Positions 34,074 to 54,082 of a stretch of DNA of 64,000 bases are shown one piece after another. The notes beneath the pieces are model-generated. The model saw only the letters and a program-made list of their open reading frames with translations, was not told the DNA's origin and made no database searches. Every line of letters starts with the position of its first letter. Positions within the stretch are counted from its first letter, which is position 1. The position numbers and the translations under genes are program-made. The DNA lies in the NCBI RefSeq assembly GCF_014925405.1, contig NZ_AQHJ01000027.1, forward strand, positions 186,001 through 250,000. The letters are read 5' to 3'. Origin of the DNA: Pseudoalteromonas ulvae UL12. GTDB lineage: Bacteria > Pseudomonadota > Gammaproteobacteria > Enterobacterales > Alteromonadaceae.

Positions 34074-34082
34074 CTGACAATA

Positions 34083-34619: not shown

Positions 34620-34644
34620 TGGACTTCCCAGACTTTGCTAGACA
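34620..34644 (+). repeat. IS3-family left inverted repeat
   Basis: 25 nt beginning TGGACTTCCCAG and ending CTAGACA; imperfect inverse match to 35825-35849. Confidence 0.88.
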
Positions 34645-34683
34645 CTTTTAACAGTTACAATGTAACTTCAAATAGAGGTGTTT

Positions 34684-34962
34684 ATGAGCAAAGGCAAACG
34701 GTATACCGAAGAGTTTAAGATAGAAGCAGTCAAGCAAATTACTGAGCGTGGTTATTCAGTTCAGGAAGTTGCTGATCGGCTTGGTATTTCAACTAAATCC
34801 CTCTATCACTGGCGAAGCCAGTTAAGTGGCAATAAAGCCGTTCGCCAGTCATCTGATGATTCGGTTCGAATTGCTAAGTTAGAGGCAGAGTTGAAGCGGG
34901 TCACGGAGGAAAGGGACATCTTAAAAAAGGCCGCAAGGTACTTTGCAAGCCAGCCAGAGTAA
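34684..34962 (+). CDS. IS3-family transposase OrfA
   Basis: 92 aa. Helix-turn-helix (EEFKIEAVKQITERG, VQEVADRLGIS, SLYHWRSQ) followed by a leucine-zipper-like coiled coil (AKLEAELKRVTEERDILKKA). ATG 34684 is chosen because GAGG lies 5 nt upstream. The A6G run in TTAAAAAAGG (34921-34930), near the 3' end, should allow a -1 frameshift into orfB to make the full OrfAB transposase. Confidence 0.93.
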   Translation: MSKGKRYTEEFKIEAVKQITERGYSVQEVADRLGISTKSLYHWRSQLSGNKAVRQSSDDSVRIAKLEAELKRVTEERDILKKAARYFASQPE

Positions 34963-35000
34963 AGTACGCCTTTATCCGAGATCACCAGAAGCAGTTCTCT

Positions 35001-35831
35001 GTGTTATCCATGTGCCGTGTATTAAAAATCAATCGCAGTGGCTTTTATGCATGGCTTAAACAGCCGTTGAGCACGAGAGCGATTGAAGATAATCGCCTGC
35101 TCAAGCGGATAAAAGAGTTCTATATTGCCAGCGGCGGAACATATGGTAGCCCTTGGATACATCGTGATCTTCGTGAAGCGGGCGAGTCTTGTAGCGTGCA
35201 CCGTGTTGCTAAAATTATGCGACTGAACAACCTTAGAGCGCAGATTGGTTACAAGCGCAAATACATCAAAGGCGTTAAGCCATCACGGATTGCAGATAAC
35301 GTATTGGAGCGTGATTTTGCCCCAGACTCACCTAATACTGCGTGGGTGAGTGACATCACGTATGTGCGAACGTATGAGGGTTTTCTGTACTTAGCGACAG
35401 TTATCGACTTGTTCTCACGACGCGTTGTCGGTTGGTCGATGGATAAAAACATGGATAAGCATTTGGTTATCCGGGCATTATTAATGGCCGTTTACCAACG
35501 TCGGCCAGAACAATCTGTGTTGGTACATAGCGATCAAGGCAGTCAGTATGGCAGTGCAGATTATTTAGCGTTTATGAAAGAGCATAATCTTATTCCTTCC
35601 ATGAGCCGCAGAGGAAACTGTCATGATAATGCGGTTGCTGAGAGCTTTTTTGCTACGTTTAAAAAGCGCGTGATCAGAAAGAAGATATATTCGACCAGAG
35701 TCGAAGCGAAGACAGAGATATTTAACTTTATAGAAATGTTTTACAATCCAAAAAAACGCCACTCGCATACAGGCGGTATATCACCTGCTAAATTCGAAGA
35801 AGCGTATTTTTTGAAACAACAGACTGTCTAG
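35001..35831 (+). CDS. IS3-family transposase OrfB (DDE integrase domain)
   Basis: 276 aa from GTG 35001; the same frame is open further up to the slippery run at 34923, as expected for an OrfAB fusion. The DDE triad is intact: Asp in WVSDITYV, Asp in VHSDQGSQY and Glu in NAVAESFFATFKK. It lies in the -1 frame relative to orfA. Confidence 0.94.
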   Translation: MLSMCRVLKINRSGFYAWLKQPLSTRAIEDNRLLKRIKEFYIASGGTYGSPWIHRDLREAGESCSVHRVAKIMRLNNLRAQIGYKRKYIKGVKPSRIADNVLERDFAPDSPNTAWVSDITYVRTYEGFLYLATVIDLFSRRVVGWSMDKNMDKHLVIRALLMAVYQRRPEQSVLVHSDQGSQYGSADYLAFMKEHNLIPSMSRRGNCHDNAVAESFFATFKKRVIRKKIYSTRVEAKTEIFNFIEMFYNPKKRHSHTGGISPAKFEEAYFLKQQTV

Positions 35832-35849
35832 TGAGAGCTGGGAAGTCCA
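35825..35849 (-). repeat. IS3-family right inverted repeat
   Basis: Ends GGGAAGTCCA; inverse of the left end with differences in the middle. It overlaps the orfB stop. Confidence 0.88.
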
Positions 35850-35916
35850 CTATATGTAGTACAGAAGGTTACAAAACACTACAGAGTTATAATGTTCGTC
35901 ATAGTAACCGTTAAAA

Positions 35917-35953
35917 TAAAAAGTAGTTAAATTTTTTAACTGCTTTTTCATCC
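35917..35953 (-). terminator. Terminator of the radical SAM operon
   Basis: AAAAAGTAGTTAAA and TTTAACTGCTTTTT form a 10-bp stem with one mismatch, with T run on the minus strand, about 30 nt after the radical SAM stop. The remaining bases from 35850 to here show nothing else. Confidence 0.7.
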
Positions 35954-35982
35954 CAAGCCTATGTATAAAAAATTGGCTTGAC

Positions 35983-37431
35983 TTATAAGTATGCTTTAGT
36001 CTGTAAAATATTTTTTAATTGATTTGTATCATATGAAGGAAACAAATCAAAATCACAAGAACGTATCATTTTTTGATGTTCAGAATAAGATAAGATTTTA
36101 TTAATACTTAACGAATCCATTAGAAAAGTTCCAACCTCAGTATATCTTCGTCTACCTTTCGGAAGTAATCGACACCTACCTTTATATAATAAAATATAAT
36201 CTAATTTAGAAAGGTAATTCAATTCATTTAATATTGTTTTATCTTGAAGCTCTTGTGAAATTTCAAACGACTCAAGTGTACCAAGCTTTAATATTAACTT
36301 TTTTCTCTTAAATTCACTTAAGCTCAAATCTGTGCTTTTCCAAATAGGTAATTGATTCATTTTAGTGCTATTTATATAGTGAGAAATATTAGGAGTATTG
36401 ATATATTGCGATTGAGATTTTTTTGAAGGAATGTAACCAAAAGCTCCAGCCCCAACTCCAATTAAAGCATCTGAATTATACTTTCCATTTTGTTGAATAT
36501 TATCAATGTTCGTCCTACTAAAAAAGTTTATAGGGCTTTCTATAAAATTATGCTCTTTCATAAAAAGTGTCATAAACTCTTCCATTACATCCCTTTCATA
36601 CTCGCTTAAAAAATACTCTTTGTTATTTTTTAAAAGCCTAAAAAGAGGATCACTTGACTTAAACATCAAGGGATACCCTGTAATTGTAGAGACTGATTCA
36701 TGGGATGCTAAAGCACGTAATGTTGATTCTAAGCTACCACGAGAATCTTTTGGTAAACCAATAATTAGCGAGGTAATAATTTCACCAACTCCATTTTCTT
36801 TAAGAAAATCTATAGTTTTTAGGTATTCATTATAGGTTTGTTTTTTTCTTCCTATTTTTTTTAAAATTTCACTACTTTTTGTCTGTAAATCAACAACCCC
36901 CTTCAACTTGCCAAAGTCACCTAAAATATTTACTATATCTGCATATTTATTTGGATTAGTATCTGCTAGGAACTCAAACTTCAATTCACAATCATTATCA
37001 ATAATAAAATACTTATGTATAGCGGAAAGGATTTTATCCAATTCTCTAGCAGATAAAATAGAAGGAGTTCCTCCTCCAAATTGAATAGATTTGATCGTTA
37101 CTCTTTGTGGAAAACGTTCAAAATAGTACTTTAGTTCTCTAATAATGGAATCGACATACAAAGAAACTATCGAGTGGTCACTTCCGAGTTTAATTTTATT
37201 TAAATGACAAAAAGAACAAATTATTTCACAAAATGGTATATGTAAGTATAAATGAACATTATTAACACAATAAAAATTTTTTTTTGTTGCTTTTTCATCC
37301 CACACTAATAAAGGAGGAATAAAACTAATCAAATAGTGTTCTTCTCTATTTCTTATAGGGATACCATTGTTTTTTAAATCCAAATTGTATTCAGAAATAT
37401 TATCTTCAGCTAACTTCCATATTTCATCCAT
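35983..37431 (-). CDS. HemW/HemN-like radical SAM enzyme
   Basis: 482 aa. The radical SAM cluster motif is CEIICSFC with C68, C72 and C75, set in YLHIPFCEIICSFCHL, the form typical of the HemN/HemW and class C methyltransferase group. The second motif IQFGGGTPS follows near residue 120. The C-terminal part matches the HemN-like layout loosely. True HemN or HemW genes are chromosomal housekeeping genes; this one, in an island operon with an oxidoreductase and a pentapeptide protein, more likely modifies a small molecule or peptide. Its ATG overlaps the stop of the upstream gene by 8 nt (ATGGATGA), with AAGGA upstream, so translation is coupled. Confidence 0.85.
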   Translation of the reverse strand: MDEIWKLAEDNISEYNLDLKNNGIPIRNREEHYLISFIPPLLVWDEKATKKNFYCVNNVHLYLHIPFCEIICSFCHLNKIKLGSDHSIVSLYVDSIIRELKYYFERFPQRVTIKSIQFGGGTPSILSARELDKILSAIHKYFIIDNDCELKFEFLADTNPNKYADIVNILGDFGKLKGVVDLQTKSSEILKKIGRKKQTYNEYLKTIDFLKENGVGEIITSLIIGLPKDSRGSLESTLRALASHESVSTITGYPLMFKSSDPLFRLLKNNKEYFLSEYERDVMEEFMTLFMKEHNFIESPINFFSRTNIDNIQQNGKYNSDALIGVGAGAFGYIPSKKSQSQYINTPNISHYINSTKMNQLPIWKSTDLSLSEFKRKKLILKLGTLESFEISQELQDKTILNELNYLSKLDYILLYKGRCRLLPKGRRRYTEVGTFLMDSLSINKILSYSEHQKMIRSCDFDLFPSYDTNQLKNILQTKAYL

Positions 37432-38026
37432 TATTAAATCCTTTCACCAAACTGCTAACTATTGCCTCTACTTCGTCATTTACATCTCGATAAACATTAT
37501 ATAAGTTATAGTGCCTTACATGGATTGGATTTATAGAAAAATCCTCTAGGCGATAGAACAATGCAAGTATTCCCTTTGAAGTAAATAACTCTTTCATTGA
37601 TTCCTCATTACCATCACAACTTGTAATAACATTTATTTTTTTTAAAAATTTAAGTTTATTCTCTTTACTTTTCAACGAAGCTGAAATTGCCTCTCCTGCA
37701 ACAGCCTGGATTAATATTTTATCAAACCATCCTTTTAATAAAGCTGGCATTCCATACCACCATATTGGGAAAAAAAATGAAATGGTTTCAGCTTCCCTAA
37801 CTTCTTCAATTAACTTATCAATTTCTTTATTTTTTTGTTCTTCACTAACAATACTATATACAACACTATCCCACTCTCCTTTTGTAAGATAAAAATTCAT
37901 ATCATATTCATCTAAATAAAGGCATTTAAAAGCAACCCCCTTTTTTGAAAGTCTATGAATTACTGATGAATAAATACTATATGTAAGGCTCTGTCTTGAT
38001 GGATGATTTACAATTAATAAATGCAT
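37424..38026 (-). CDS. Flavodoxin-fold NAD(P)H oxidoreductase (NQO/MdaB-like)
   Basis: 200 aa. The N-terminal beta strand and phosphate loop (LLIVNHPSRQSLTYSI) and the segment FFFPIWWYGMPALLKGWFDKIL are characteristic of NAD(P)H-quinone oxidoreductases and KefF/MdaB-type flavoproteins that bind FMN or FAD. It starts 1 nt after the pentapeptide gene stops and overlaps the radical SAM gene by 8 nt. It could supply electrons to the radical SAM enzyme or reduce the same substrate. The substrate is unknown. Confidence 0.85.
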   Translation of the reverse strand: MHLLIVNHPSRQSLTYSIYSSVIHRLSKKGVAFKCLYLDEYDMNFYLTKGEWDSVVYSIVSEEQKNKEIDKLIEEVREAETISFFFPIWWYGMPALLKGWFDKILIQAVAGEAISASLKSKENKLKFLKKINVITSCDGNEESMKELFTSKGILALFYRLEDFSINPIHVRHYNLYNVYRDVNDEVEAIVSSLVKGFNNG

Positions 38027-38027
38027 A

Positions 38028-39119
38028 TTAATACTTATCTTTGATTCGATTAAGCATTAAGGGAACATTAATCTCTAATCCTAATAATTTAATTGGCTTA
38101 ACTTTTAAATACTCGCCAATCATAAACTCTTTATCGGATATCTTCCCTTTACTATCAGAAACCACATCAACATATTGGATTAAATCTCCATTTAAAGCAG
38201 ACTTTCGTAAGGAGTTATTTTCGGCATATGCTAAGGACAGTTTTGACTTAAGACTATATAGTTCAGACATAAGCCTAGCTTGTTTAATATCTTTATCATG
38301 ATTAATTTCAGTAAGTTCAATTGATGGAAGGTTCAAATATTGAGTTAATAATTCATATATTGCCTTTAAGGCAATGTTTTTATTTTTTGGCTTAATTTCA
38401 AATGTTGATTTTAAATCATCTCGTAGAAGAGTTGTATTTACATCAACATACTGATCTACCATGAATTGGGAGAAATAAACTAGGTACTGTTCACATGGAA
38501 CTCTTATTTCATTAGGAAAACAAAATTCTACTAATATTCTTTGTTTATCATTTGACATAATAGATGTAGAGCCAATAATATCGATTTCACTGTTTATTTC
38601 TCTAATTTTATCAAATGTTAATTCGTTAGAAGTTACGTTTAAAAGTTTACTATTTATCCAATTGCAAGTTTCTATATTTTGAATATTCAAAAAAACTGTA
38701 TTTTTCACAATGCAATTATCAAATACAGCTAAATCTAAATTGGTTGAAGATAATTCGCATCCATCAAAACCTGTACATTCAAACTTTGTTTTCTTAAGAT
38801 TTGCCCCCCCTAAGCCACAATCGAAAAACTTACAATTTAAAAATTTACAATTAGTAAGATAAGTACCACTAAAAATTCCTTTATGTATTTCAACATTTTC
38901 GAAAATAGCCCCTCTTAGATCAGAGCGACTAAAATCAACATTAATTATTTTACAGTTTCTAATCTCAACATTTAATAACTTTGAATCCACCAAATACATA
39001 TCTTTTAAATCTGTTTCCACGACTGAATTTTCGATACAGATTCTAGTCCCATCAACACCATCAGTTTGCACCCAAACCTTGTGTTTTTGAATTTTGTCAT
39101 CATCAAATTTATCTATCAC
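38028..39119 (-). CDS. Pentapeptide-repeat protein with a unique C-terminal domain
   Basis: 363 aa. Residues about 25-165 have the A(D/N)LXX-type pentapeptide rhythm (VDFSRSDLRGAIFENVEI, CKFLNCKFFDCGLGGANLKK, FECTGFDGCELSSTNLDLAV), expected to form a right-handed quadrilateral beta helix. The rest (about 170-363) has no motif I know. The start is GTG 39119 with AAGGAG 8 nt upstream; no better start exists. First gene of a three-gene operon. Some pentapeptide proteins mimic DNA and protect gyrase from inhibitors made by neighbouring genes; others have no known role. Such a role here is only a possibility. Confidence 0.85.
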   Translation of the reverse strand: MIDKFDDDKIQKHKVWVQTDGVDGTRICIENSVVETDLKDMYLVDSKLLNVEIRNCKIINVDFSRSDLRGAIFENVEIHKGIFSGTYLTNCKFLNCKFFDCGLGGANLKKTKFECTGFDGCELSSTNLDLAVFDNCIVKNTVFLNIQNIETCNWINSKLLNVTSNELTFDKIREINSEIDIIGSTSIMSNDKQRILVEFCFPNEIRVPCEQYLVYFSQFMVDQYVDVNTTLLRDDLKSTFEIKPKNKNIALKAIYELLTQYLNLPSIELTEINHDKDIKQARLMSELYSLKSKLSLAYAENNSLRKSALNGDLIQYVDVVSDSKGKISDKEFMIGEYLKVKPIKLLGLEINVPLMLNRIKDKY

Positions 39120-41792: not shown

Positions 41793-42752
41793 CTAAACTA
41801 CTTTGCGTGAACTGGTCACGGTCAATTTGCTGCCACCTGAAATATCAACATTGGCATAAGCAAAGCGCATTTCACCTGTTCGTCTTTCAATTGGCTGAGG
41901 CAGATGAGACGATTTTGGAAATGTATTCACCAATTGCTTTCTAAAACGGTAAATCTGAATGTTGACATGCCCTTCATTTTGCCCAAGCATTTTGCACAGA
42001 AGATCTTTATCTAACCAGCCTTGCTCTGCTTCAGTCACGCCCGCTTCTTTATCTTCGAGGCGTTTTCTTGCCAGTAATAACAGTAAATAATGGTGATTAC
42101 GTTGCCCTAAATCATACTCATAGCCATCTAAGATAAAGCGTAATGACACATGCTCTTCATTCTGGCTGACATCAAAAAAGATCCCAAGTTGCGATGATTT
42201 AGGTAGCTCTACAGATTCTATGCGACATGTTTCATCACTGGCTTTCGCTTCAATAAATCGCCACTTTTCATCCAACGTACCCACTAAGTCACCTGTTGCA
42301 AGCACTGATATGCCCAATGGGCTTTCACAGATCCAATGACCATTAGGGGATAAATATAAGGTAATTTCTGGGTTTTCTTCGTTGGGCAACACAACCAAAG
42401 ACTCTAACTCAATGAGCTTTAATCCTGTTGTCACAGGCACTAACAAACTTTTTGGCGGGCAATCACTTTCGACTTTCCAACTATCGGCATCTAATGAAGC
42501 AAACTGAATTACATCATCAATATGAATTCGTTGTTTGGTTCCTCGTTGAATGAGTTTACCATTCACATAACTGCCATTTGTACTCGAGTCTTGCAATAAC
42601 CAATCCTCTCCATCCCAAAAAATTGACGCGTGCGTACGTGAAGCCTCAGGCATAACAAGCACAGTGTGGGATGTCGTAGGATGACGCCCAAAAATATGTT
42701 GTGTCAGTAAAGTCACACTTTCAGAAGTCGTTTGATTAGTAATGCGAGCCAT
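41793..42752 (-). CDS. FHA-domain protein with C-terminal winged-helix-like region
   Basis: 319 aa. The N-terminal FHA domain (about 15-95) has all phosphothreonine-binding residues: FGRHP, SRTHASI, DSSTNGSYVNG. The C-terminal part (about 210-300: LLLLLARKRLEDKEAG, NIQIYRFRKQLVNTFP, ERRTGEMRFA) reads like an OmpR-type winged helix, as in FHA-linked regulators. It lies at the far end of the locus headed by the large Ser/Thr kinase, so it may read the kinase's phosphorylation and control transcription. That link is inferred. Confidence 0.83.
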   Translation of the reverse strand: MARITNQTTSESVTLLTQHIFGRHPTTSHTVLVMPEASRTHASIFWDGEDWLLQDSSTNGSYVNGKLIQRGTKQRIHIDDVIQFASLDADSWKVESDCPPKSLLVPVTTGLKLIELESLVVLPNEENPEITLYLSPNGHWICESPLGISVLATGDLVGTLDEKWRFIEAKASDETCRIESVELPKSSQLGIFFDVSQNEEHVSLRFILDGYEYDLGQRNHHYLLLLLARKRLEDKEAGVTEAEQGWLDKDLLCKMLGQNEGHVNIQIYRFRKQLVNTFPKSSHLPQPIERRTGEMRFAYANVDISGGSKLTVTSSRKVV

Positions 42753-42851
42753 GAGAGTTCCTTCTTAAATGCACGAAAATCCAATGATAGGATGCTTTGC
42801 CTTGCGTGTATATTACCTATTATTACAAATTTATTAACAAGTAGTGTTAAA

Positions 42852-43787
42852 TTAATAAGTTAGCTTTTCATTCTCTGAAAGTTCAAAGCCATTTTTTCCA
42901 TTTTCTTTGGCTCGATATAAGGCTAAGTCGGCCCGTTCAAACACATTACTCATTTCATCCCCTTTTTGGTAAGAAGCGCAACCGATACTGCATGTCACCT
43001 TAAATTGTGCCAATAAACGGTCTTCGAGCACTGCATCACGGATCCGGTTAGCGATATCAGGGATTGTCTGCTGCGTTGCTTGGTCTAATAAAAGCGTAAA
43101 TTCATCTCCGCCAAAACGAAAAACAGCATCGTGCTCTCGGCTGCAGCGCTTTAGTACCTTAGCAAAAGACATGAGCACTAAGTCACCCATCTGATGACCA
43201 AAGGTGTCATTGACCCATTTGAAGTTATCTAAGTCGAGCACCATCATTGCAAAGCTGTGTGACTGATTATGATTTCGGTGCATCATATTTTTAAACGACA
43301 TATCAAATTGATTGCGGTTCGCAAGCCCAGTTAAACTATCCACTAACGCCAATGTTTTCATTGCTTGATAGGCTAACGAATTTTTTAAAGGGAAGGCTAA
43401 TACATTGATTAAAATGGTTAATACCTTTTTTTGTGCAGAAGAGAGCGTTTGCTCAAATTCGATGTCAAGCGTACCAATTTCTTGACCTTCAATGAGTATT
43501 TTTTCACAAACACTCTCTGCGCCTTTTTCAAATAGGGCCGATGACAAGACCCCATCTAGGTGTGTGAAGGTTAAGCCGCAAATAGGTAAACAATACCTAA
43601 TGTGTTGATGGAAAATAGCCAATAACTCTTCTGGTTTCATCGTCGATTGTAAATCAGTGAGTAAATTAACCGCTGAACGATCGACGCTGCTTTGTTTTAC
43701 CAAAGTATTTAAAAACAGCGGATGCCTACGAGCTAAACTAAAAAATTTATATGGAAGCCAAGTGCTTGCGGTCATAACGTTACTCAA
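42852..43787 (-). CDS. GGDEF diguanylate cyclase with GAF-like N-terminus
   Basis: 311 aa. The C-terminal GGDEF domain (about 145-305) is complete: DSLTGLANRNQFD, LDLDNFKWVNDTFGH and the active site RFGGDEFTLLL. An inhibitory RXXD site (REHD) lies exactly five residues before GGDEF, so product inhibition is expected. The N-terminal 140 residues look like a degenerate GAF-type sensor. No signal peptide or membrane segment, so it is cytoplasmic. It lies between the FHA gene and the haem-protein gene, with gaps of about 100 and 120 nt. Confidence 0.92.
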   Translation of the reverse strand: MSNVMTASTWLPYKFFSLARRHPLFLNTLVKQSSVDRSAVNLLTDLQSTMKPEELLAIFHQHIRYCLPICGLTFTHLDGVLSSALFEKGAESVCEKILIEGQEIGTLDIEFEQTLSSAQKKVLTILINVLAFPLKNSLAYQAMKTLALVDSLTGLANRNQFDMSFKNMMHRNHNQSHSFAMMVLDLDNFKWVNDTFGHQMGDLVLMSFAKVLKRCSREHDAVFRFGGDEFTLLLDQATQQTIPDIANRIRDAVLEDRLLAQFKVTCSIGCASYQKGDEMSNVFERADLALYRAKENGKNGFELSENEKLTY

Positions 43788-43908
43788 AATTACGCAAAAT
43801 CCAAACTGAGTTCTGCCAAAATTATTATTGCTATGACGACGATACTACTGCTTCTTTTTGTGCAATCAAATTACAGCATATTACACACTCATCAGCCGTA
43901 ATTACGTG

Positions 43909-45435
43909 TTAATGCCCCTCTTTTTTCCAATGTGCATCATAAAAATTAAAACTCATATCACCATTGTTATGACCCCAAATCACCTTCTTTTGCATGCCTT
44001 GTTGCTTATAACCTGTTGCGATCGCCCCTTTTGCATGGCAATTCATACAAGAAGAGCTTTGGTAATAGGTGCGATTATCGGTCTTCACATTACCAAGTTG
44101 CAGAAAGGTTTCTATTACTTCGTTAGTTAAAAATACAGGGTAAGGGCCATAACCTGAATAATTGACGATTTTCCCTGGTAACTGAATTTGCTCCGCTGCT
44201 GAAAAGTCGGTTGTAAACTGTGTACCAACCAATTGATAAAACTGTAAAACCGAGCCTTCTACTGCAAGCTTGGCCTGAACTTGTTGGTTAATTGTTTGAG
44301 TAATTGGGTTGATGGGATCCATCAATTTAACTTGGGTTTTACTGCTTCCTCCATTTGCAACATTCACCGCACACTCTGGGCATTGAGGATCAAAAAATGA
44401 CGGTGACTGCTCACTTGATGGTTCAGTAAGCACATTATCGAGATGCGTAAAGGTTGAAAACACCCACTTGGGTGACGAAGTGGTTTTTTGTGCGAGGTGA
44501 AAACCCACCACTCCTAGTTTTTTCTGCACGACTTTACTGGCATTATCGTCGGTTATTAGTACATCTGTATTTACATGAATATATCGGCTCACATCATCAG
44601 CGTCTGTTAGTACTTTCCAAGCTATTTTTAATTCAACCGGGCCACTTGGATCATTGCTATCAATGTCGCGCATATTCGTCGCTGGTGTACACGGGATCGA
44701 AGGTGCCCCTGTTGCATTAGATTTGCCATTGCACAATAAAAAACTACCCTGTGCAAACGACACTTCACCGTGACTGCTGGCATACGTTATTTGACCATCT
44801 AAGTTATACAGCTCATTAGTTTTAATAAAGTTGAATGCCACAGGATTCATGTATTTTTGGTAATAAACGGGATTATCTTGTTGATCAATTAACACTCCAT
44901 CTGTGGCGGCATTAAATTGATGATCAACAACCTGATGGATACTCGACACTGCTGGGTTATATTGCTTGTTCTCAGTAAAGAGCCACTCTTTGGGTGCTGA
45001 ACCATCCTCTAAAAAGACACTTTCAGTCGTTCTCCAATTGAGCCAAACAGGTGTTTGTGCCGACTTAAGATTCTCATCAGTGATTACAAACTCTTTATCG
45101 ACAGCTCGGTTCACCGCAATAAACGCAGCCCATGAAAAAACATCGTATTGCCACGTTAAATAATTAAGCTGCTGCTCTCTTTTGAGCAATAAATCTGCTG
45201 ACTGCTCTGCTTGTGAAACACTCACAACAGGCTTAATACTTTTACACAAATTTCGATTATAAGCCTCTGGCGGGTAGTACTTAATCGAAACAAGCGTTTC
45301 TGGAATTGTGGTTGGTAAGGGCCGTTCAAATGGGCACGATGTTGTTTCTAACCACGGTGGGTAAAGGCCTGCTTGATTTGCATCTGACGCTAAACTTGCA
45401 CTGAGTAACAATAAAGATAAAAGGGTTTTTGTCAT
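43909..45435 (-). CDS. Exported protein with a single c-type haem motif
   Basis: 508 aa with a signal peptide (about 1-19). One CXXCH motif (SSCMNCHAKGA, near residue 465) for covalent haem binding is close to the C-terminus. The rest is mainly beta-rich and has no family motif I recognise; several other cysteine pairs occur (for example CPFE, CNGK/CTPA, CPECA). Periplasmic or secreted. Its start lies 8 nt after the 317-aa gene, so both belong to one transcript with the kinase gene. Function unknown; an electron-transfer or oxidase role is a guess. Confidence 0.8.
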   Translation of the reverse strand: MTKTLLSLLLLSASLASDANQAGLYPPWLETTSCPFERPLPTTIPETLVSIKYYPPEAYNRNLCKSIKPVVSVSQAEQSADLLLKREQQLNYLTWQYDVFSWAAFIAVNRAVDKEFVITDENLKSAQTPVWLNWRTTESVFLEDGSAPKEWLFTENKQYNPAVSSIHQVVDHQFNAATDGVLIDQQDNPVYYQKYMNPVAFNFIKTNELYNLDGQITYASSHGEVSFAQGSFLLCNGKSNATGAPSIPCTPATNMRDIDSNDPSGPVELKIAWKVLTDADDVSRYIHVNTDVLITDDNASKVVQKKLGVVGFHLAQKTTSSPKWVFSTFTHLDNVLTEPSSEQSPSFFDPQCPECAVNVANGGSSKTQVKLMDPINPITQTINQQVQAKLAVEGSVLQFYQLVGTQFTTDFSAAEQIQLPGKIVNYSGYGPYPVFLTNEVIETFLQLGNVKTDNRTYYQSSSCMNCHAKGAIATGYKQQGMQKKVIWGHNNGDMSFNFYDAHWKKEGH

Positions 45436-45443
45436 GTTTATTC

Positions 45444-46397
45444 TTATAATTTGAAAAAATGAATAGGCATCACTTGATGGTAATAATAAACTTTTAAAAG
45501 CGGTTGCTGACCATATTCAAGTGTCGCTTTAAAATATAAAGCAGCTTCATCCAGTCGTTTATTTTTATACCAAGCACTTACCTTACGTAAACACTCGGGC
45601 GAAATGTCAAAAAACTGCGCCAATTGCTCAGTAAATAAATCCGTTAAGTCATGATTTTGTTCACTTAACCAAGGGAACTCAATTTCAATTCGCGAGGTGA
45701 GATCGGCTTGAAATGACACGCTCACTTGAACTTCATCTAACCACTGTAAAAATCGATGATAAAAAGCGGTTAATTGCTGAATATCCCCCGGCCACTCAAG
45801 CGAATCCAATAAATCAAACAATGCTGCTTGGGTGAGTTTATATGTAAACTTAAAACGCAATTGACTGCGCGCAAAAGTAACCCCTAAGTGCTTCAGGTTA
45901 TTGAGCTCTCCTGCGGCGAAAATTCTGGGCACTATGTACTGATATTGTTCGCCCACACTTCGATACACATCCTGTATCACTTGTTTGAGTAACTTTTCAT
46001 CATTAAAAGCAGGATGCTGTGTACTTAAACAAAAGGACGGTAAAACCGGATACAAATTGTCTGCCCAATCGAAACTGAGCCAGTACAATTTGACCGGCCA
46101 ATAGATGTCACCCGTTTTAAGCTTTTCGAGCAACGAAATAAAGCAACTCGTGCGTTCATTGCATTGTTGTGCAGATAAGTAGTGAATAAGTGCATTTATA
46201 TTGTTATCACTGGTTTTAAATCCAAATAACACATCAAATGCATCACTATGTTTAAGCTGAGTTTCATAACAAATCACCTTAGGCGTGCCAATTTTCAACG
46301 CGAACAGTTGAGCAACATGCTTGGGATCTTGGTGGGTTAATAAGGTGGGAAATTGGCGAAAACGCTGTGTATCGATACACATTAACTCATTAGGCAT
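45444..46397 (-). CDS. Unknown 317-aa protein next to the kinase locus
   Basis: No signal peptide or membrane segment. I do not recognise the family with confidence. The C-terminal half alternates strands and helices (ARSQLRFKFTYKL, SRIEIEFPW, LYFKATLEYG, LLKVYYYHQ). This pattern, the size and the closing YYY segment recall cyanobactin ABBA-type peptide prenyltransferases (PagF/LynF type), but that is a remembered resemblance, not an alignment. It lies 48 nt after the 84-aa gene, with a strong hairpin in the gap, and 8 nt before the haem-protein gene. If the 84-aa protein is a precursor peptide, this could be its modifying enzyme. Confidence 0.7.
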   Translation of the reverse strand: MPNELMCIDTQRFRQFPTLLTHQDPKHVAQLFALKIGTPKVICYETQLKHSDAFDVLFGFKTSDNNINALIHYLSAQQCNERTSCFISLLEKLKTGDIYWPVKLYWLSFDWADNLYPVLPSFCLSTQHPAFNDEKLLKQVIQDVYRSVGEQYQYIVPRIFAAGELNNLKHLGVTFARSQLRFKFTYKLTQAALFDLLDSLEWPGDIQQLTAFYHRFLQWLDEVQVSVSFQADLTSRIEIEFPWLSEQNHDLTDLFTEQLAQFFDISPECLRKVSAWYKNKRLDEAALYFKATLEYGQQPLLKVYYYHQVMPIHFFKL

Positions 46398-46412
46398 CTC
46401 TGAATCCTAAAT

Positions 46413-46436
46413 GGCCTATAACAGGCGTTATAGGCC
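46413..46436. promoter_or_regulatory. Perfect intercistronic hairpin after the 84-aa gene
   Basis: GGCCTATAAC (46413-46422) and GTTATAGGCC (46427-46436) form a perfect 10-bp stem with a 4-nt loop between the 84-aa and 317-aa genes. No T run follows on the minus strand, so it would act as an RNA stabiliser or processing site, or as a partial terminator, letting the upstream small gene be expressed more than the downstream ones. Confidence 0.7.
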
Positions 46437-46445
46437 TGATATTAA

Positions 46446-46700
46446 TTACCAACAGGTCGGTATAATGTTTTCGACTTCACCACGAAGTGCTGCACAATAG
46501 TTTGCCCAATTAGCATCATTCACGCCTTGCTCAGCAAAACTTTTTACCACTGCTTTTTCTTCATTATCAAGTTCAAACAAAGCCATTGCTTGGTTTAAGT
46601 CATTGATCGCAAGCTTTTTTACTTCATCGTTATTGTTGACGTTATATGTAAATGACAACAAACCTTTTGGATAATTATTTTCACTCATTTTACTACTCAT
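46446..46700 (-). CDS. 84-aa protein, candidate ribosomal-peptide precursor
   Basis: Starts 2 nt after the kinase gene stops, so translation is probably coupled. Residues about 28-70 look helical and acidic (INDLNQAMALFELDNEEKAV, VKSFAEQGVNDANWANYC), resembling in style the helical leader regions (Nif11/LigA-like) of RiPP precursors. The C-terminus GEVENIIPTCW is different in character and holds Cys and Trp at the very end. A double start (ATG codons 1 and 5) is present. It is followed by a strong hairpin. No function is proven; alternatives are a small regulatory or adaptor subunit of the kinase. Confidence 0.7.
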   Translation of the reverse strand: MSSKMSENNYPKGLLSFTYNVNNNDEVKKLAINDLNQAMALFELDNEEKAVVKSFAEQGVNDANWANYCAALRGEVENIIPTCW

Positions 46701-46702
46701 TT

Positions 46703-49700
46703 TTATAAATTAACTTTTAATGTTTCTAATAAACCTTTGGTGTACCTTAATTGTGTGTCATTTTGATGATGACTCACTAAATCACTGCATTGTCGAGCGA
46801 TATCGTTGCGCCCCAATGCCAAAGCATGGTGCCCCAACACAATAAAGTAGAGCCCCCGATGCAAAAAGTACGCAGGGAACTTCGCTAAATTTTGTTCATA
46901 AACGGTTAAATCCCAACAGCCGACAGTTGGGTAATCAAGCACATATTGATGCATGGTGTTGTAACTTAACCAAAATGGATTATTCACTTTCTTAGCCAGC
47001 GCCAAACCTTGTTGATTAACTAATTGCGCTTGTACTAATAAATCAGCTTTATTTTCTGCCAAAGGAAACTGTAATAAACTCAACCAATTGAGTAAGCCAC
47101 ACACTGCGGACGAAAGCTCATCGAGGTTAATCTCCGACGTCTCTTGATTTAAAGCTGCGATATATTGCTCTGCTTGCGAGGTATTTCCCATTAAGATATT
47201 CGCCCCGGCAACAAAAGCTTTAGAGGTTAAAGTCGGGACAGTGCCAAAGTTTTCCACACAAAATTGTGAGTCAACAGGCGCAAGATTGAGCAATAACTCA
47301 AATTCATCATAATATTGTTGTGTACATGCAAATTCCCCCAGACAGAAGCTGGTTTGCATCAACATTTCATAAATAATCAGCTGAATTGAAATAGAGTACG
47401 TTGCTTTGTGCTCATACAAAGCCAAATTGATTTCATGGGCGGTGATGATATTACCTTTGGCATACTCCATTAACCAATTACCTCTTATCACAGAGAAAGA
47501 TTTGAGTAAGTCGATTTGAGTTGCTTGCTGTTCATGAGCATTAAGTAGATGACTCGCTTTTTCTGATTGCCAGCCTTCGATAGCGACAAGGCATGCCGCG
47601 ACAGCATTTCGGATATCATCCTCTGGATAAGCCAATTGAGCACTTAATTCATTATTGAGTGTCAAAGCACGCTGATATTGCACCAGCGCGTCATGATATA
47701 AATAGCGTTTAATGGCATTTTCAGCCGTATTAAGCGCATATTTAATCGCTAATGGATAATCTTGCGCAAGCTCAAAGTGCATAGAGATCTGCGCGCTTTC
47801 GGATTTTTTGTTTTCTAAACTTTGATACGCTCGCGCAAGTCGCTGATGATGGTTAATTTTATGGCTAGATTGAATACTTTCATAGGCCGCATCACGCACC
47901 AGTGCGTGTTTGAAAATATAACTATCACCTTCGACTTTGCGATGCTGAATAATTAAATCAGCGGCCAGTAACTCATTCAGATCGGTTTGCGTTTGCTCTT
48001 CGCTTCGCGCTGAGGCTGCTTGTAACAATTGGTAGTCAAACTCACGACCAATAGCTGCCGCTAATTGAACGGTTTCTTTCGAGTAAACCAACGAATCTAA
48101 CTTCTGTTGTAATGAGTCTCGCAGCGTACTTGGGACCTGATCGAGCTTATCAGGACTGACAAAATCAATAATGCCATTGAGCTTATGCACTAATTGATTC
48201 TTTTTAAGCATATCCACTAATTCTTCAATGAATAATGGGATACCATCTGTACGGTTTATCAATAAATCAGTCACATTCGGCGCCACCACATCATGGCCAA
48301 ATAAACTTTGGATAAATAAACGCGTCATCTGTGGGGGTAATTGCGTTAAATGTAACGAAGAGCAAGAATTAAACGCTAACGTTTCATCAAGCGCCTCACG
48401 AGAGGTGGTCACAATCAAACATTTATGTGCCTGTGCATTTTTCACTAAATAGACAATAAAATCTCGGCTGATTGGATCAACCCAGTGCAAATCTTCAATA
48501 ATGATGACTTGTTTTAAATCACTGTTCAAATTAGACAAAAGCAACTGCGCAAGTACGGCAAACATCGCCATTCTTTGCTGCTCTATATTTAGGTTTGGCT
48601 CAGATAAACCATCTGGTAGAGGTAAATTTAACCAGGCCAGCAGCGTCGCAACGCCCTCTTCGAAGGCGTTTATATTGTCCGCGATACATAACGCTTGCTC
48701 ATACAAAAGCTGCGCAGCTTCTTCGTCTGCGAGATTGAGCAAAGAGTATTTGTACTGAATTAAATTTAAGATAGGAAACAAAGCATTGTTTTGCTGCTCA
48801 GGTAAACATTGAGCAATAAACTGCGGGTGAGCCACTGCGTTATCACGAAACTCAAAAACTAATCGAGATTTGCCGATCCCAGCTTCACCATAAATATGCA
48901 GCCATTTTTCATTCTCTTGCAATCCATTTAGCTGATCGGATCTCGTTTCTAAAACTTGCTTCAAACGATCTAACTGTGCTGTTCGCCCAAAAAATCCGTG
49001 GTTGCGTCGATGGCCCCGTAAAAATCCAAAGGCCTCAGCTTGGCGCTCTGCGGTCAATAAATAGGTTAATTGCAATGTGCTATTTACACCAACAAGACAG
49101 CGCTGTCTGGGCTGAAACTCCAAATAACAATTTAAAATATTTTGCGATGACTGCGAGCACAATATTTGCTCAGGCTCGGCCATTGCAGATAATTCTAAGG
49201 CAATATTGGCGGTTTCCCCTTCAGGGCTAGTATCGGCAAAGCACGTAATAATCCCAGTATGCATGCCTATTTTGGCCTTTGCCTCAATCCCTTGACTGAC
49301 CCGTAATAAGGAACTTCTTTTTTGCAGCAAACTTGATATTTCAAGGGCTGTTCGGGCTGATAACCGAGAGTCGTTATCACTTACTGTCGGATAACCAAAG
49401 TAAAAGAGCAGCTGATGACCTAAACTCCCAACATGGTACGCCCCGTAACGAATGGCAATATCGATACATTGATTTTTTAAATCGTGATGAATAGCTTCAA
49501 TGACTTCACTATCAAAGTGCTCGTGAGTCATGCGTCTAAGGCTTATCGTCACAGCCAAAGCAGTAATTTGTTTTCGCTCAGTTTGACTGGTTTGGTTAGC
49601 TGCTTTTGCACTCACCATAGTGTTATCAGATAACGTGGTTTCAGAAAACTCATGTTTACTGTTATCTTGCCCCGATAAATCCCCAACCAGATTTGCAAAG

Positions 49701-50575
49701 TTAAGCTGACTTACTTCTGCAAATAGCTCTTGGGCTGTCACTGTGCGTTCGTGTGATTTTTTTTGTAATGCTCGGCGCAAAATAGCCGCAATAGGATGCC
49801 CCACTAGCGCCGCAGACAGTGGCACATTACTCTGGCTCAATTGTTTATGAAAGATTGAAGCGATGCTCGACCCTGCCATGGCCGGCTTGCCGGTTAAGCA
49901 CTCTATAAATACCAAGGCCCAAACATAAATATCTGTTTTGACTGTGGGAGGCTCACCTCTTAATTGCTCAGGGGCACTGTAGGATGGTGTGCCAAGCGTT
50001 TCTTGTGTGAGTGTAATGCTTTTATAGTCGCTGTGTTGCGCTTCATTAATCAGTGTGCCGATACCAAAGTCGAGCACTTTAACGTGAGTTTTTGCTCCGG
50101 TTTGGGTCAACATGATATTGGCAGGTTTTATATCGCGATGGATCACACCCAATTGATGTGCATGAGCCAGCGCATCGAGCACTTGAGTCATGATCTCAGC
50201 CGCCACCACAGGTTTGAGCGCACCACTTTGAGTAATGACTTGTTTTAACGTTTGCCCCTGTACATACTCAAACACGGCATATAAAAGGTGATCATTTGAG
50301 CGGCCTTTATCAAGTAAACGTACAATGTTTGGGTGTTGCAGCTTACTAACAAGCAGAGTTTCGCGTTCAAAACGGTCAATATAACGTTGCTTTTTTTCAG
50401 CATCAAAATCGGTATTGATATTTAAAAATTTAATCGCAACTTCTTGCCCGGTTTTTAATAAAACCGCGCGATAAACACTTGCAAACCCGCCTTCCCCGAT
50501 TTTTTCAATCAACTGATAAGCATCAGAGTTAAATTGCAGTGTGATTGGATCTAAATCAGACATACCTACATTCAT
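46703..50575 (-). CDS. Ser/Thr kinase - degenerate class III cyclase - AAA ATPase - TPR protein
   Basis: 1290 aa. Kinase domain about 18-290 with intact motifs: GEGGFASV, VAIK, HRDIKPANIM, DFG and an APE-like SAPEQL. The class III cyclase-like domain (about 335-510) keeps the fold but has lost both metal-binding aspartates: the first motif reads TISLRRM instead of F.DI.G and the second reads SLGHQLLFYFG instead of LGDG. AAA_16-type ATPase (about 535-700) with Walker A GEAGIGKSR and Walker B IIIEDLHWVD. The rest is TPR-like. This build resembles the kinase/cyclase fusions described beside TOMM peptide clusters. It is cytoplasmic, as no membrane segment is seen. First gene of the run kinase, 84-aa, 317-aa, haem protein. 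Confidence 0.9.
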   Translation of the reverse strand: MNVGMSDLDPITLQFNSDAYQLIEKIGEGGFASVYRAVLLKTGQEVAIKFLNINTDFDAEKKQRYIDRFERETLLVSKLQHPNIVRLLDKGRSNDHLLYAVFEYVQGQTLKQVITQSGALKPVVAAEIMTQVLDALAHAHQLGVIHRDIKPANIMLTQTGAKTHVKVLDFGIGTLINEAQHSDYKSITLTQETLGTPSYSAPEQLRGEPPTVKTDIYVWALVFIECLTGKPAMAGSSIASIFHKQLSQSNVPLSAALVGHPIAAILRRALQKKSHERTVTAQELFAEVSQLNFANLVGDLSGQDNSKHEFSETTLSDNTMVSAKAANQTSQTERKQITALAVTISLRRMTHEHFDSEVIEAIHHDLKNQCIDIAIRYGAYHVGSLGHQLLFYFGYPTVSDNDSRLSARTALEISSLLQKRSSLLRVSQGIEAKAKIGMHTGIITCFADTSPEGETANIALELSAMAEPEQILCSQSSQNILNCYLEFQPRQRCLVGVNSTLQLTYLLTAERQAEAFGFLRGHRRNHGFFGRTAQLDRLKQVLETRSDQLNGLQENEKWLHIYGEAGIGKSRLVFEFRDNAVAHPQFIAQCLPEQQNNALFPILNLIQYKYSLLNLADEEAAQLLYEQALCIADNINAFEEGVATLLAWLNLPLPDGLSEPNLNIEQQRMAMFAVLAQLLLSNLNSDLKQVIIIEDLHWVDPISRDFIVYLVKNAQAHKCLIVTTSREALDETLAFNSCSSLHLTQLPPQMTRLFIQSLFGHDVVAPNVTDLLINRTDGIPLFIEELVDMLKKNQLVHKLNGIIDFVSPDKLDQVPSTLRDSLQQKLDSLVYSKETVQLAAAIGREFDYQLLQAASARSEEQTQTDLNELLAADLIIQHRKVEGDSYIFKHALVRDAAYESIQSSHKINHHQRLARAYQSLENKKSESAQISMHFELAQDYPLAIKYALNTAENAIKRYLYHDALVQYQRALTLNNELSAQLAYPEDDIRNAVAACLVAIEGWQSEKASHLLNAHEQQATQIDLLKSFSVIRGNWLMEYAKGNIITAHEINLALYEHKATYSISIQLIIYEMLMQTSFCLGEFACTQQYYDEFELLLNLAPVDSQFCVENFGTVPTLTSKAFVAGANILMGNTSQAEQYIAALNQETSEINLDELSSAVCGLLNWLSLLQFPLAENKADLLVQAQLVNQQGLALAKKVNNPFWLSYNTMHQYVLDYPTVGCWDLTVYEQNLAKFPAYFLHRGLYFIVLGHHALALGRNDIARQCSDLVSHHQNDTQLRYTKGLLETLKVNL

Positions 50576-50713
50576 CAGTTACTCTTATTGCTCTTCTGCT
50601 ACTTAGTAAAAAAATACTACTTCAGCGTCCCCATATTATCAATAAAATCAGACAAATGAAGGCATACATCTGATTTAAATGTCGAATAAACACTCTAAAA
50701 CAATACTTAAGGA

Positions 50714-51055
50714 TTATGCCTTGGATGCAGGAGCTGATTCACTGACAGACAAGCGCACTTCAATTTGCTTTTCAATACGCTGACCATCCGGATTTAACAG
50801 TTCAAACACTATCTGGGCTTGACCTGCTTTTTTCATCACAAAACACCATTGTTTTACGCAAAATTCACCGATGGCGCGCACTGGGGGCTGAAATACATTC
50901 ACATGTGCGACTTCATACACGTCGCTGTTATCTGTTCTAACTTGCCAATGATTTAATTTAGAAGGATTGCATTCTTTAAAGAAAAAAGCCTGCTCACCAA
51001 TTGAAAGTTGGTTTTCGAAAAAGTTATTTAAAAGGTGCTGTGAAGATTCAGTCAT
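50714..51055 (-). CDS. 113-aa protein, possibly chagasin (I42)-like
   Basis: No signal peptide. The second half (RAIGEFCVKQWCFVMKKAG, then QIVFELLNPDG and IEVRLSV) has the beta-strand rhythm of the chagasin-like/I42 protease-inhibitor fold, but the usual NPTTGY loop is not present, so this is tentative. It lies 138 nt upstream of the kinase gene on the same strand and may be the first gene of that operon. Function unknown. Confidence 0.65.
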   Translation of the reverse strand: MTESSQHLLNNFFENQLSIGEQAFFFKECNPSKLNHWQVRTDNSDVYEVAHVNVFQPPVRAIGEFCVKQWCFVMKKAGQAQIVFELLNPDGQRIEKQIEVRLSVSESAPASKA

Positions 51056-51227
51056 GCTAAATAAATTCTGTAATAATGTGAATTAAATTAAGTGTCATCA
51101 CTTAATCATTAGCACATCCATATGAAATGACTTTCTTCCTGAATGTTCATCATAAAACGAATGGCAAATTTAACTATTACACTCTATTACACCGAGCATG
51201 AATGTCGGGATTGATGAGCTCCTGATA

Positions 51228-51268
51228 CAAAAACACCTCACAGCCATTGCTGACAGTGAGGTGTTAAT
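51228..51268 (-). terminator. Collagenase terminator
   Basis: AACACCTCAC (51232-51241) pairs with GTGAGGTGTT (51256-51265), followed on the minus strand by TTTTGT. It lies about 20 nt after the collagenase stop. Confidence 0.85.
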
Positions 51269-51286
51269 TTAACAAGTGATGACTAA

Positions 51287-54082
51287 CTAACGACAACCTG
51301 CGGTATCAAAATCGACCACTATAGCGGCTCCTTGTGGCGCACCCGACACTTTAACGTATCCCCAGTAATTACTCTGTGTTTGCAATGAAATACATTCACT
51401 ATTACCGACATTATAAGATGCACCATGGTGGTTCGAACCATTTGGCCAGCCCGCATTGCTGTACTCAATGGTTAAATCACCCGTTCCATTGGCCGTAGTG
51501 ATAGACATGCTGCCATGTGCATTCACGTCAGCAATGCTAAACCACATCGGTTCTTGTTGACCTAAACAAGTCACTTGCCCTGCTGTTAAGCGACCATCAG
51601 TTACCGGTGCTTGAGTCGCACATACGTTTGGCAAACTATTGTTTTGCGGCGCTTTGAAACTTGCTGTCAAAGTAGTTTGATACGCATTGTAACCGCGAAC
51701 CATCACATGATAGGTGCCCGCTTGAACATTTGCGATAGTACAAGTTTCAGTATTTCCGCCAATATATGGGCGACAATCGTACACATTTTGGTCGGCTTGT
51801 TGGCCAAATTTCACATATAAATCTGCATCTCCTTGGCCACCTGCTATTTTAAAGCTCAGTTCAGTGGCTCCTGCAGGCACTTGCAAGGTGTAGTGCGTTT
51901 GTGAATCTTGAGCACCTGAAATACTCAGAGGTTGTTTATTAACTAATTCATTGCCAATAGGCGGTTCGATAACATCCCCACCAATTACGGCTTGTGAAGT
52001 TGCGGTTGCAACGGCGCCTTGGTTATCTGTCACAGTCAAATACACAGTGTAGTTACCGGCCTGACTATAACTGTGGTTAGCTTGAGCTGATGAGCTAGTT
52101 GAGTTATCCCCAAAGTCCCATAAGTATGTAATAACACTGCCATCTTGGTCATAAGATGAAGTTGCATCAAACGCGATACTGATATTTTTATCTGCTGAGT
52201 ATGGACCATTTAAAATGGCAACTGGCGCGATGTTTTCAACCGGAGGATTAGTGACATTAGTGAGCGATTGCGTCCAGGTCGTAAACTCTGCACCATAATT
52301 ACTGGCCCATGTGTTGACCCTTGCTTTATAGGCTGTCCAGTCACCTTTGCGAGTGTCCGCGAGCATTAAATTCACTTCATCACGGTGTTTTTCAAACATA
52401 AACCTTACAGCTAAATAGCCCCAACGGTAGATACGATCTTGATCAAAACCATCGTACGTGGTTTCAAACACTGTCGCTAATGAATACGTAGAGCCATCAT
52501 TAATTGTATCAATCGCTGCTGGGTTGTCGTTCTGATTGGCGACATATTCTGCAACCCCTTCTGTCCACCACACAGTTCGTTCAGTCGGGTTATTAAAATC
52601 GCCATACAAATCAAAACGCCCATCAAGATAATGCACATACTCGTGTTCAAGGTTCCAGACATAATGATCTGCATTGGCGTAACTTGCTTCATAAGCAATA
52701 AAGTTCGGAACATTATCAAGTGCAGCAGGATTTCCCTCTAAATACATGCCACCATTGTTGGTATCGATACCAAAAATAGCCCCACCGTACTTACCATAAT
52801 CATCACTTGAGTCAAAAATGTTGACTTGCAACTGACTATTGTTGTCATCAGGAACAGGCACATTATTTGTTTGTAATTGAGTGTGGAAAAAGCTTTCTTC
52901 GTAAGCCATCTTGTCGCATGCAGCTGTTAACTGTACCGCTGTCATTTGCTGCGCTCGAATGCGAATAGTTGCGCTACATTGATGATTTTGTGGAAACACT
53001 TTAGCGACTAACTGCTCGCCATAACCACAAATATTGAACTCACTGCAATCTGCATAATAAGTGGCGGTATCTGCCGCACCTAACCAAACAACATCACCGT
53101 AACCAAACATTTCATAGGTTGAGAATATCTGTTTCAGCGCTGCATCAACATCAGCTTGAATCGCTGTGCCTGTGTAACTTTTAAGCCGACCTAATTCACG
53201 TGCCGCATTTGCCACCATAAACTCGGCATCTGTACCAAGCATATAGTTGCTCATAGCAAACTCTTTTAGAATCGTAACTAACTGACGATCGTTACCGACA
53301 TTCGCAACAAAATTATCGTTCCATTGACCGCGGAAAATAAGCGTAAAAAAGCCATTGACTGCATTGCGCATATTCCAACCAGCAGCATAACTTTCATTCC
53401 AACGGCTTAGCCACGTTTTAGCCACAGAGAGATAAATATCTTGCTGCTCTGAGCTATCCATCGTGGTGATCACTTCAGCCATGGTTTTAGCATGACCTTC
53501 GTTATTATCATAAAAATGACTATTGTTTACAAACGCGTCAATTGCGCCTTTCACCGCTGGTTTAACCCAAGTTGCGAAACTCACTGAGTCGTTATAAAAC
53601 TCAACAAAATAACCTGCACGTAAATACAAAAATAATGCCTCAAGATCCGCATCACCGCCGCCATTGTAGTTTTGAGCTAATGACTTGGCATGATTCGCCA
53701 CTGCATGCATATGATTCGATGTAAATACAGTCGCTTGTATGTTGGAAGAAGCGCTAAATAAGTCATTAACACATGTCGCGCCTTGTGACTTAATACTGCT
53801 AATTAAAGTCGTACTATTGCTGGTATTAAACGCATCCAAATTACAATTTTCAGCCATAAGCTGATCAACCGCAGTTTGAATATTTAAATCGTGTAAACGG
53901 TGAGAATATTCATTTGGAATATCCCGTGAAACTGATTGTGCTTTTGGAACATTTAACTGAGGTTTGGCTTCAACCCCATGATAATGATTTTTTTGCGTGG
54001 CAGTATGTGGAGCCGAGCTTGCCAATACTGATTGAGCGCATAGCGCTGCCGATATCGCGATAACCAATTGTGTTGTTTTCAT
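51287..54082 (-). CDS. Secreted M9-family collagenase with PKD and PPC domains
   Basis: 931 aa with a signal peptide (about 1-21). An N-terminal activator-like domain (about 75-330), then the peptidase domain with zinc motif HEYVH near residue 480 and the third ligand Glu in WWTEGVAEYVA about 27 residues later. A PKD domain follows (about 617-700: PVAILNGPYSADKN, YLWDFGDNS), then a PPC domain (about 710-800: DADLYVKFG, GTYHVMVRGY) and a last beta domain with a Cys pair. The plan matches Vibrio-type collagenases that digest collagen outside the cell. It is a single gene. Confidence 0.93.
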   Translation of the reverse strand: MKTTQLVIAISAALCAQSVLASSAPHTATQKNHYHGVEAKPQLNVPKAQSVSRDIPNEYSHRLHDLNIQTAVDQLMAENCNLDAFNTSNSTTLISSIKSQGATCVNDLFSASSNIQATVFTSNHMHAVANHAKSLAQNYNGGGDADLEALFLYLRAGYFVEFYNDSVSFATWVKPAVKGAIDAFVNNSHFYDNNEGHAKTMAEVITTMDSSEQQDIYLSVAKTWLSRWNESYAAGWNMRNAVNGFFTLIFRGQWNDNFVANVGNDRQLVTILKEFAMSNYMLGTDAEFMVANAARELGRLKSYTGTAIQADVDAALKQIFSTYEMFGYGDVVWLGAADTATYYADCSEFNICGYGEQLVAKVFPQNHQCSATIRIRAQQMTAVQLTAACDKMAYEESFFHTQLQTNNVPVPDDNNSQLQVNIFDSSDDYGKYGGAIFGIDTNNGGMYLEGNPAALDNVPNFIAYEASYANADHYVWNLEHEYVHYLDGRFDLYGDFNNPTERTVWWTEGVAEYVANQNDNPAAIDTINDGSTYSLATVFETTYDGFDQDRIYRWGYLAVRFMFEKHRDEVNLMLADTRKGDWTAYKARVNTWASNYGAEFTTWTQSLTNVTNPPVENIAPVAILNGPYSADKNISIAFDATSSYDQDGSVITYLWDFGDNSTSSSAQANHSYSQAGNYTVYLTVTDNQGAVATATSQAVIGGDVIEPPIGNELVNKQPLSISGAQDSQTHYTLQVPAGATELSFKIAGGQGDADLYVKFGQQADQNVYDCRPYIGGNTETCTIANVQAGTYHVMVRGYNAYQTTLTASFKAPQNNSLPNVCATQAPVTDGRLTAGQVTCLGQQEPMWFSIADVNAHGSMSITTANGTGDLTIEYSNAGWPNGSNHHGASYNVGNSECISLQTQSNYWGYVKVSGAPQGAAIVVDFDTAGCR

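Follow-up and report, generated by a model that had tools for sequence, protein, structure and literature searches.

Two of the described systems closest to the locus reported here combine a kinase gene with a precursor gene. Precursors of the TIGR03795 family are encoded beside a large Ser/Thr kinase and a cyclodehydratase (PMC2887384). In Paenibacillus alvei, PalQ attaches a prenyl group to the C-terminal Trp conserved in PalX, a precursor of the NHLP type, and the two are encoded in a three-gene cluster that also holds a histidine kinase (PMC10853753), and a review assigns the cyanobactin enzymes to the ABBA fold and places PalQ and ComQ among enzymes resembling trans-isoprenyl diphosphate synthases (PMC13290415). 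Our analysis concerned a stretch of 64,000 nucleotides (nt) of Pseudoalteromonas ulvae UL12 (contig NZ_AQHJ01000027.1, positions 186,001 to 250,000; the whole stretch is called the window below, and coordinates refer to it). Behind a kinase gene, it encodes an 84-amino-acid (aa) protein ending in Trp, a 317-aa predicted prenyltransferase and a 508-aa haem protein. We consider it rather probable that this cassette is a unit resembling those of ribosomally synthesized and post-translationally modified peptides (RiPPs), in which the 317-aa enzyme prenylates the C-terminal Trp of the 84-aa protein and the haem protein, which resembles cytochrome P460, acts on or with that Trp.

The four genes lie on the minus strand. 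The first encodes a Ser/Thr kinase/degenerate cyclase/AAA regulator of 1290 aa (46703..50575), which scored 756.7 bits against the TIGR03903 (TOMM_kin_cyc) model (cut-off 705.75); in Pfam, Pkinase and AAA_16 were above their cut-offs and Guanylate_cyc just below. The gene of the 84-aa candidate precursor or acceptor protein (46446..46700) starts 2 nt behind the kinase and ends in a Trp codon (residue 84, 46449..46451) followed by the stop, and the 317-aa (45444..46397) and 508-aa (43909..45435) genes come next. These open reading frames (ORFs), and the GGDEF and FHA genes discussed below, were all found where a preliminary description made from the sequence alone had placed them, as were the IIPTCW ending of the small protein and the one CXXCH (CMNCH) of the 508-aa protein. 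That description had also reported no YcaO gene at the locus, and none was found when seven of its ORFs were compared with Pfam and NCBIfam; the sole YcaO match in the genome is on another contig. It had listed SagB and transporters as missing too: there is no transporter among the annotated locus genes, and no genome-wide search for SagB or transporters was made.

Compared with the TOMM kinase loci, as the accessible text presents them, the window shares a TIGR03903 kinase above the curated cut-off, a precursor-like gene directly behind it and a candidate residue at the extreme C terminus. However, the locus has no YcaO gene, and its small protein ends in Trp and not in a Cys/Thr/Ser tail. 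The side-by-side arrangement of a kinase gene, a small precursor with a C-terminal Trp and a prenyltransferase gene is that of PalP/PalX/PalQ (PMC10853753). PalQ, however, belongs to the isoprene synthase superfamily, whereas the window enzyme is a predicted ABBA barrel, and the Pal system uses a histidine kinase where the window has a Ser/Thr kinase-AAA regulator. PalX carries a recognised NHLP leader. The 84-aa protein has no family match, and its only significant profile links are to the small protein of one other locus (L107, 77%) and, weakly, to cluster C14; the cassette also has a haem protein, and none is described in the accessible part of the Pal report. The cassette would then be a counterpart of the PalX/PalQ system that uses a different kind of kinase and a different enzyme fold and has a haem protein in addition.

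We surveyed 108 genomes of the genus, 50 of which had a place scoring above the TIGR03903 cut-off. The 64 such places comprise 60 fetched loci, the window and three further loci (L221-L223); counts of kinase motifs and FHA genes and the kinase tree cover the 60 fetched loci plus the window. The HRDxKxxN, DFG and P-loop patterns were present in 61/61 kinases. The genes behind the kinases clustered into three groups: YcaO loci, loci with a PhyH-like protein (cluster C10) and loci with the 508-aa family (cluster C1). A YcaO protein (C0) of at least 400 aa was found in 28 of the 61 loci, often with an amidohydrolase (C2), a PhyH protein (C3) and precursor-like proteins, many of which end in Cys, Ser or Thr; of two representatives tested against TIGR03795, C8 scored over the cut-off and C4 below. 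In the PhyH-like group (L097, L104, L105 and L108; L087 and L092), the C10 oxygenase accompanies a small protein of 90-154 aa, and no full-length YcaO or haem protein was seen among the clustered downstream genes.

The C1 group makes up 29 of the 64 loci (27, then two more). The exact set of the window, namely the 84-aa family (C5), the 317-aa family (C6) and C1, lies behind the kinase in 12 of the 64, window included, although in L053 another C1 cassette separates the set from the kinase. Since these three families follow a TIGR03903 kinase in 12 of the 64 loci above the cut-off, the cassette is not a chance arrangement. The preliminary description had proposed looking for co-occurrence across genomes, and indeed the 84-aa family directly precedes the 317-aa family on the same strand in 12/12 loci of this kinase family. 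Cassettes may also be stacked: L098 carries both C1 and a YcaO gene, and in L064 genes of C11, C2 and C3 follow at some distance downstream of C1. On a quick tree of the 61 kinases, the C1 label (26 rows, with L098 as a class of its own for haem protein plus YcaO, and L108 labelled YcaO from a 55-aa piece) needs 9 changes against a shuffled mean of 19.9, and 8 of them are forced by well-supported branches. Because of these nine changes, we conclude that kinase lineages exchanged cassettes several times; the tree rejects a single kinase clade for each cassette type. The window kinase sits on a long end branch of unsure placement, with its best scores to a C1 kinase (L086, 57.7% over 925 aa) and a YcaO kinase (L072, 52.1% over 1025 aa).

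The 84-aa protein matched no NCBIfam or Pfam family at E<=1, including TIGR03795 and TIGR03793, and its profile found nothing of use among solved structures. Direct homology searches of a large protein set gave only two hits for it and one for the 317-aa protein, so both families were built from genomes. No copies of the 84-aa family beyond chance were found away from kinase loci in the window's own genome. In an alignment of nine of the 12 C5 sequences, 17 of 106 columns were invariant and the last of these is the Trp, present in 9/9, so the conserved C-terminal residue that the preliminary description had thought worth looking for does exist. Every one of the 29 C1 loci has a small protein ending in Trp (26 through the ORF caller; L107 through an ORF that the caller missed, a 98-aa peptide ending NFTW; plus L221 and L222). 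Among the clustered small proteins, Trp is the last residue in 29/29. The same ending occurs in 0/40 precursor-like proteins of the YcaO and PhyH groups, which were picked by cluster and for the most part not tested against precursor models, and in 3/897 other called ORFs of at least 60 aa. One of these three is a C9-like ORF in L060; the other two, of 113 and 89 aa, come from two loci that lack C1.

These Trp-ended proteins, 79-272 aa long, fall into clusters C5, C9, C14, C25, C29, C31 and C35 plus the L107 peptide. Profile comparison (hhalign) joined C5 with the L107 peptide at 77% (E 2e-05) and with C14 at 17.5%, and the other pairs were not significant; among the precursor-like proteins of YcaO loci it gave clear C4-C11 and C8-C4 links. 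In a small BLAST comparison, C25 and C29 came together, and C5 showed weak links to C9 (2e-04) and C14 (0.003). These results did not link all Trp-ended proteins into a single family. The terminal Trp is thus kept across several sequence clusters; the independent families are several, their exact number being uncertain. By a simple rule, Sec- or Tat-like starts were seen in 3 of the 29 clustered small proteins (L053, L059 and L065), the window's not among them.

The 317-aa protein, listed as unknown in the preliminary description, gave only chance-level rows in Pfam and NCBIfam and no match to a prenyltransferase family of either, and a profile search against solved structures found nothing of use. 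A predicted structure, as the preliminary description had advised, gave a model with pLDDT 75.2 and pTM 0.78, which Foldseek and VIA-align both placed in the ABBA (PT-barrel) fold, an (alpha-beta-beta-alpha)x5 barrel; this assignment is that of a predicted model. Members of the family in an alignment of 12 share 24-26% identity with the window's protein, and over 16 members (12-26% identity to it) E45, D55, W106, D110, H170, K290, K302 and Y304 are invariant. Six of these (E45, D55, H170, K290, K302 and Y304) lie on predicted strands and are candidates for the diphosphate-binding basic residues and the catalytic acid of such a barrel. In predicted fold and length the protein resembles cyanobactin (F-family) and indole ABBA prenyltransferases (LimF, CymD, IptA and AmbP1), and Trp or indole acceptors are common among the matched enzymes. 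It differs from LimF, CymD and IptA in sharing only 12-14% identity with the chains listed and no sequence family, and from the cyanobactin and indole enzymes in that the proposed acceptor is a linear protein with a terminal Trp. A gene of this fold is present in 23 of the 29 C1 loci, in 23/23 directly behind the small protein. It is very improbable that the barrel fold has been kept but catalysis lost, so that the protein only binds the 84-aa protein or confers immunity: its sequence is too diverged for the models of Pfam and NCBIfam, and a fold match shows no function, but the invariance of E45, D55, D110, H170, K290, K302 and Y304 over 16 sequences fits a kept active site.

Proteins of the cytochrome P460 family are known for hydroxylamine oxidation, NO binding and, in some cases, peroxidase-like activity. 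The 508-aa protein has a signal-like N terminus and, near its C terminus, the single CXXCH, which is found in 30/30 members of its family; C463, C466 and H467 are invariant in 36 sequences. Structure prediction covered this protein as well as the 317-aa one. Rows 1-14 of its VIA comparison all belong to the cytochrome P460/c'-beta superfamily, with weak match scores, and K270, also invariant in 36, lies in a motif that aligns weakly (about 5 bits) with the one containing Lys78 of the Methylococcus capsulatus P460. A P460-like core is supported, more weakly than the other assignments. As in cytochrome P460/c'-beta (PMC6427953 and PMC11928373, in their accessible parts), the CXXCH is followed by a D-F-x-F type tail, and a Lys aligns, at the weak score given, with the haem-crosslinking one. 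However, those proteins have about 150 aa, whereas the window family has about 500, with large insertions, and a genomic link to peptide-like genes.

This link does not extend to the whole superfamily. At 20 loci sampled from other parts of the genus (L119-L138), relatives of the haem protein had no peptide-cluster gene nearby, and the Trp-ended ORFs listed there were one of 45 aa, one of 59 aa and two adjacent ones of 313 and 324 aa in L137; a rule tying the entire superfamily to terminal Trp was rejected on this sample. Relatives of the 508-aa protein adjoin LodA-type quinoprotein oxidases (L123 and L135; by look also L129, L130, L134 and L195), with a LodB-like flavoprotein where seen, and elsewhere they also stand beside a GMC oxidoreductase. 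The word "cytochrome" is absent from the lodA survey (PMC4417212), and in the papers searched "cytochrome P460" was not found together with "post-translationally modified peptide", nor was TIGR03903 found. No listed paper on RiPP prenyltransferases and Pseudoalteromonas was judged from its listing to match the cassette.

In the prenylation model, the 317-aa enzyme would bind the body of the 84-aa protein and the prenyl group would go to its C-terminal Trp. The 508-aa protein, matured in the periplasm, would recognise or oxidise this Trp before or after prenylation, or alternatively would be a redox partner of the product, and the kinase would control the unit, as its sister kinases are thought to do for YcaO-modified precursors. 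We infer the acceptor role of the Trp, the action of the haem protein on it and what the kinase would sense; the product may be a processed peptide or a stable modified protein. The earlier suggestion of a variant that makes or senses a modified peptide by other chemistry is plausible, given a TOMM-kinase relative without YcaO, the pairing of the 84- and 317-aa genes and the terminal Trp; the other chemistry is most likely Trp prenylation by an ABBA-fold enzyme together with a P460-like haem protein.

Several observations weigh against this model. Six C1 loci of the C9 type (L062, L063, L064, L066, L067 and L098) have no prenyltransferase gene, and searches of their genomes gave no prenyltransferase match. 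Conversely, L220 has an orphan prenyltransferase homologue without an adjoining C1, and its 167-aa neighbour ends VEVV. Given these six loci and the orphan, the Trp is not accounted for by prenylation only; its constant partner is the haem protein. In the model, a cytoplasmic prenyltransferase and a periplasmic haem protein would both have to meet the small protein. The L220 homologue (L220:7318-8355) adjoins a weakly kinase-like 1242-aa protein, the 167-aa protein and an FG-GAP repeat protein.

A broader model, which we hold only tentatively and think somewhat unlikely, would define a new class of peptide modification: a P460-type haem enzyme would alter the C-terminal Trp of small proteins (by oxidation, nitration or the like), and the ABBA prenyltransferase would add a second step in most loci. 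Both could then trade places with YcaO cassettes downstream of a single kinase family, whose general task would be to oversee modification at the extreme C termini of proteins. The Trp-ended proteins could also be stable partners of the P460-like protein, their Trp docking at the haem or passing electrons to it, with the prenyltransferase-fold gene an accessory of part of the loci. Such a redox unit would fit the presence of a Trp-ended protein in 29/29 kinase loci with the haem protein, including the six whose genomes gave no prenyltransferase match, as well as the LodA/LodB and GMC neighbours of haem-protein relatives and the Sec- or Tat-like starts of some small proteins. We nevertheless judge it unlikely, as the rule applied finds a signal peptide in only a minority of the small proteins and 23 of the 29 loci do carry the prenyltransferase-fold gene, always directly behind the small protein.

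It is quite unlikely that the system is one of membrane-anchored signalling, in which the prenylated 84-aa protein would be a kinase adaptor or substrate, read by the FHA protein, and nothing would be secreted. The absence of a protease or transporter among the annotated locus genes and the length of the Trp-ended proteins are consistent with anchoring, but the sister cassettes are modification cassettes with YcaO and the haem protein would be left unexplained. The FHA gene (PF00498, 41793..42752, minus strand) bears on both sides of this question. Counting the window, 5 of 61 loci have a homologue (in one case a 101-aa piece), which may lie before or behind the kinase, and all five belong to one 7-row kinase clade; no homologue was found in the fetched stretch of the other 56. 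The phospho-reader role first proposed for it draws some weak support from this clade and from L208, a locus of another taxonomic family where an FHA gene is directly upstream of the kinase. Because the branch of the window kinase is long, the clade pattern is to be weighed with care. The diguanylate cyclase (GGDEF) gene (42852..43787, minus strand), counted as part of the locus at first, had no cluster partner among the downstream genes of other loci and was rejected as a cassette member.

The hairpin noted in the preliminary description, between the 84- and 317-aa genes (46413..46436, minus strand), is a stable stem (48 nt, -16.3 kcal/mol, z -3.79; 0/200 shuffles as stable). Stems of different sequence stand at the equivalent place behind the small-protein gene in L054 and L058, whereas folding parts of the gaps in L051 and L056 gave no clear stem. 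Inspection by eye showed no T-run, and an intrinsic terminator was rejected for this reason; the stem-loop may set the expression ratio.

Beyond the genus, the cassette is thinly distributed. Searches that did not ask for Trp found two loci. L207, from another genus of the family, has a C1 protein of 419 aa, a prenyltransferase of 285 aa and a 179-aa protein ending NAVW with a signal-like start, and no kinase of the window's family in the 20 kb searched. L208 has the kinase, C1 in an open frame, a 90-aa protein ending RVYW and a prenyltransferase. Of 12 loci with haem-protein-like genes, chosen outside the genus or on other grounds, one was of cassette type (L183, then L207) and no peptide-cluster gene was seen in the rest. 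Only two kinases in 369 genomes of the class were above the cut-off, those of L208 and the window itself. Profile A2 was matched in 2 of 395 genomes of the family, both within the genus, and the wider profile A7 in 5 of 395, one outside it.

Elsewhere in the window, 9591-14666 encodes a protein of 1691 aa that contains many acidic repeats, nearly identical to one another (LDDLDLEDDEQETAAADE type). A possible mobile island (29420-39119) holds a phage integrase, a TIR-STAND protein and an rve-type transposase, then a radical SAM/flavodoxin-fold/pentapeptide-repeat gene trio on the minus strand. At 50714-54082, a 113-aa chagasin-like inhibitor ORF (PF09394 below cut-off), inside the end of the described locus at 51055, is next to a collagenase of the M9 family that has PKD and PPC domains.

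The analysis proposes an enzyme activity that can be tested for the uncharacterised 317-aa family and points to an ABBA-fold solution for the C-terminal Trp prenylation reported, in the accessible parts of these sources, for the unrelated PalQ fold (PMC10853753, PMC13290415). An enzyme that prenylates a C-terminal Trp would in addition serve as a tool for labelling. A P460-like haem protein is here linked to peptide-like substrates, and the role of the TOMM kinase/cyclase regulators becomes testable: they front interchangeable cassettes whose small proteins have modifiable C termini.
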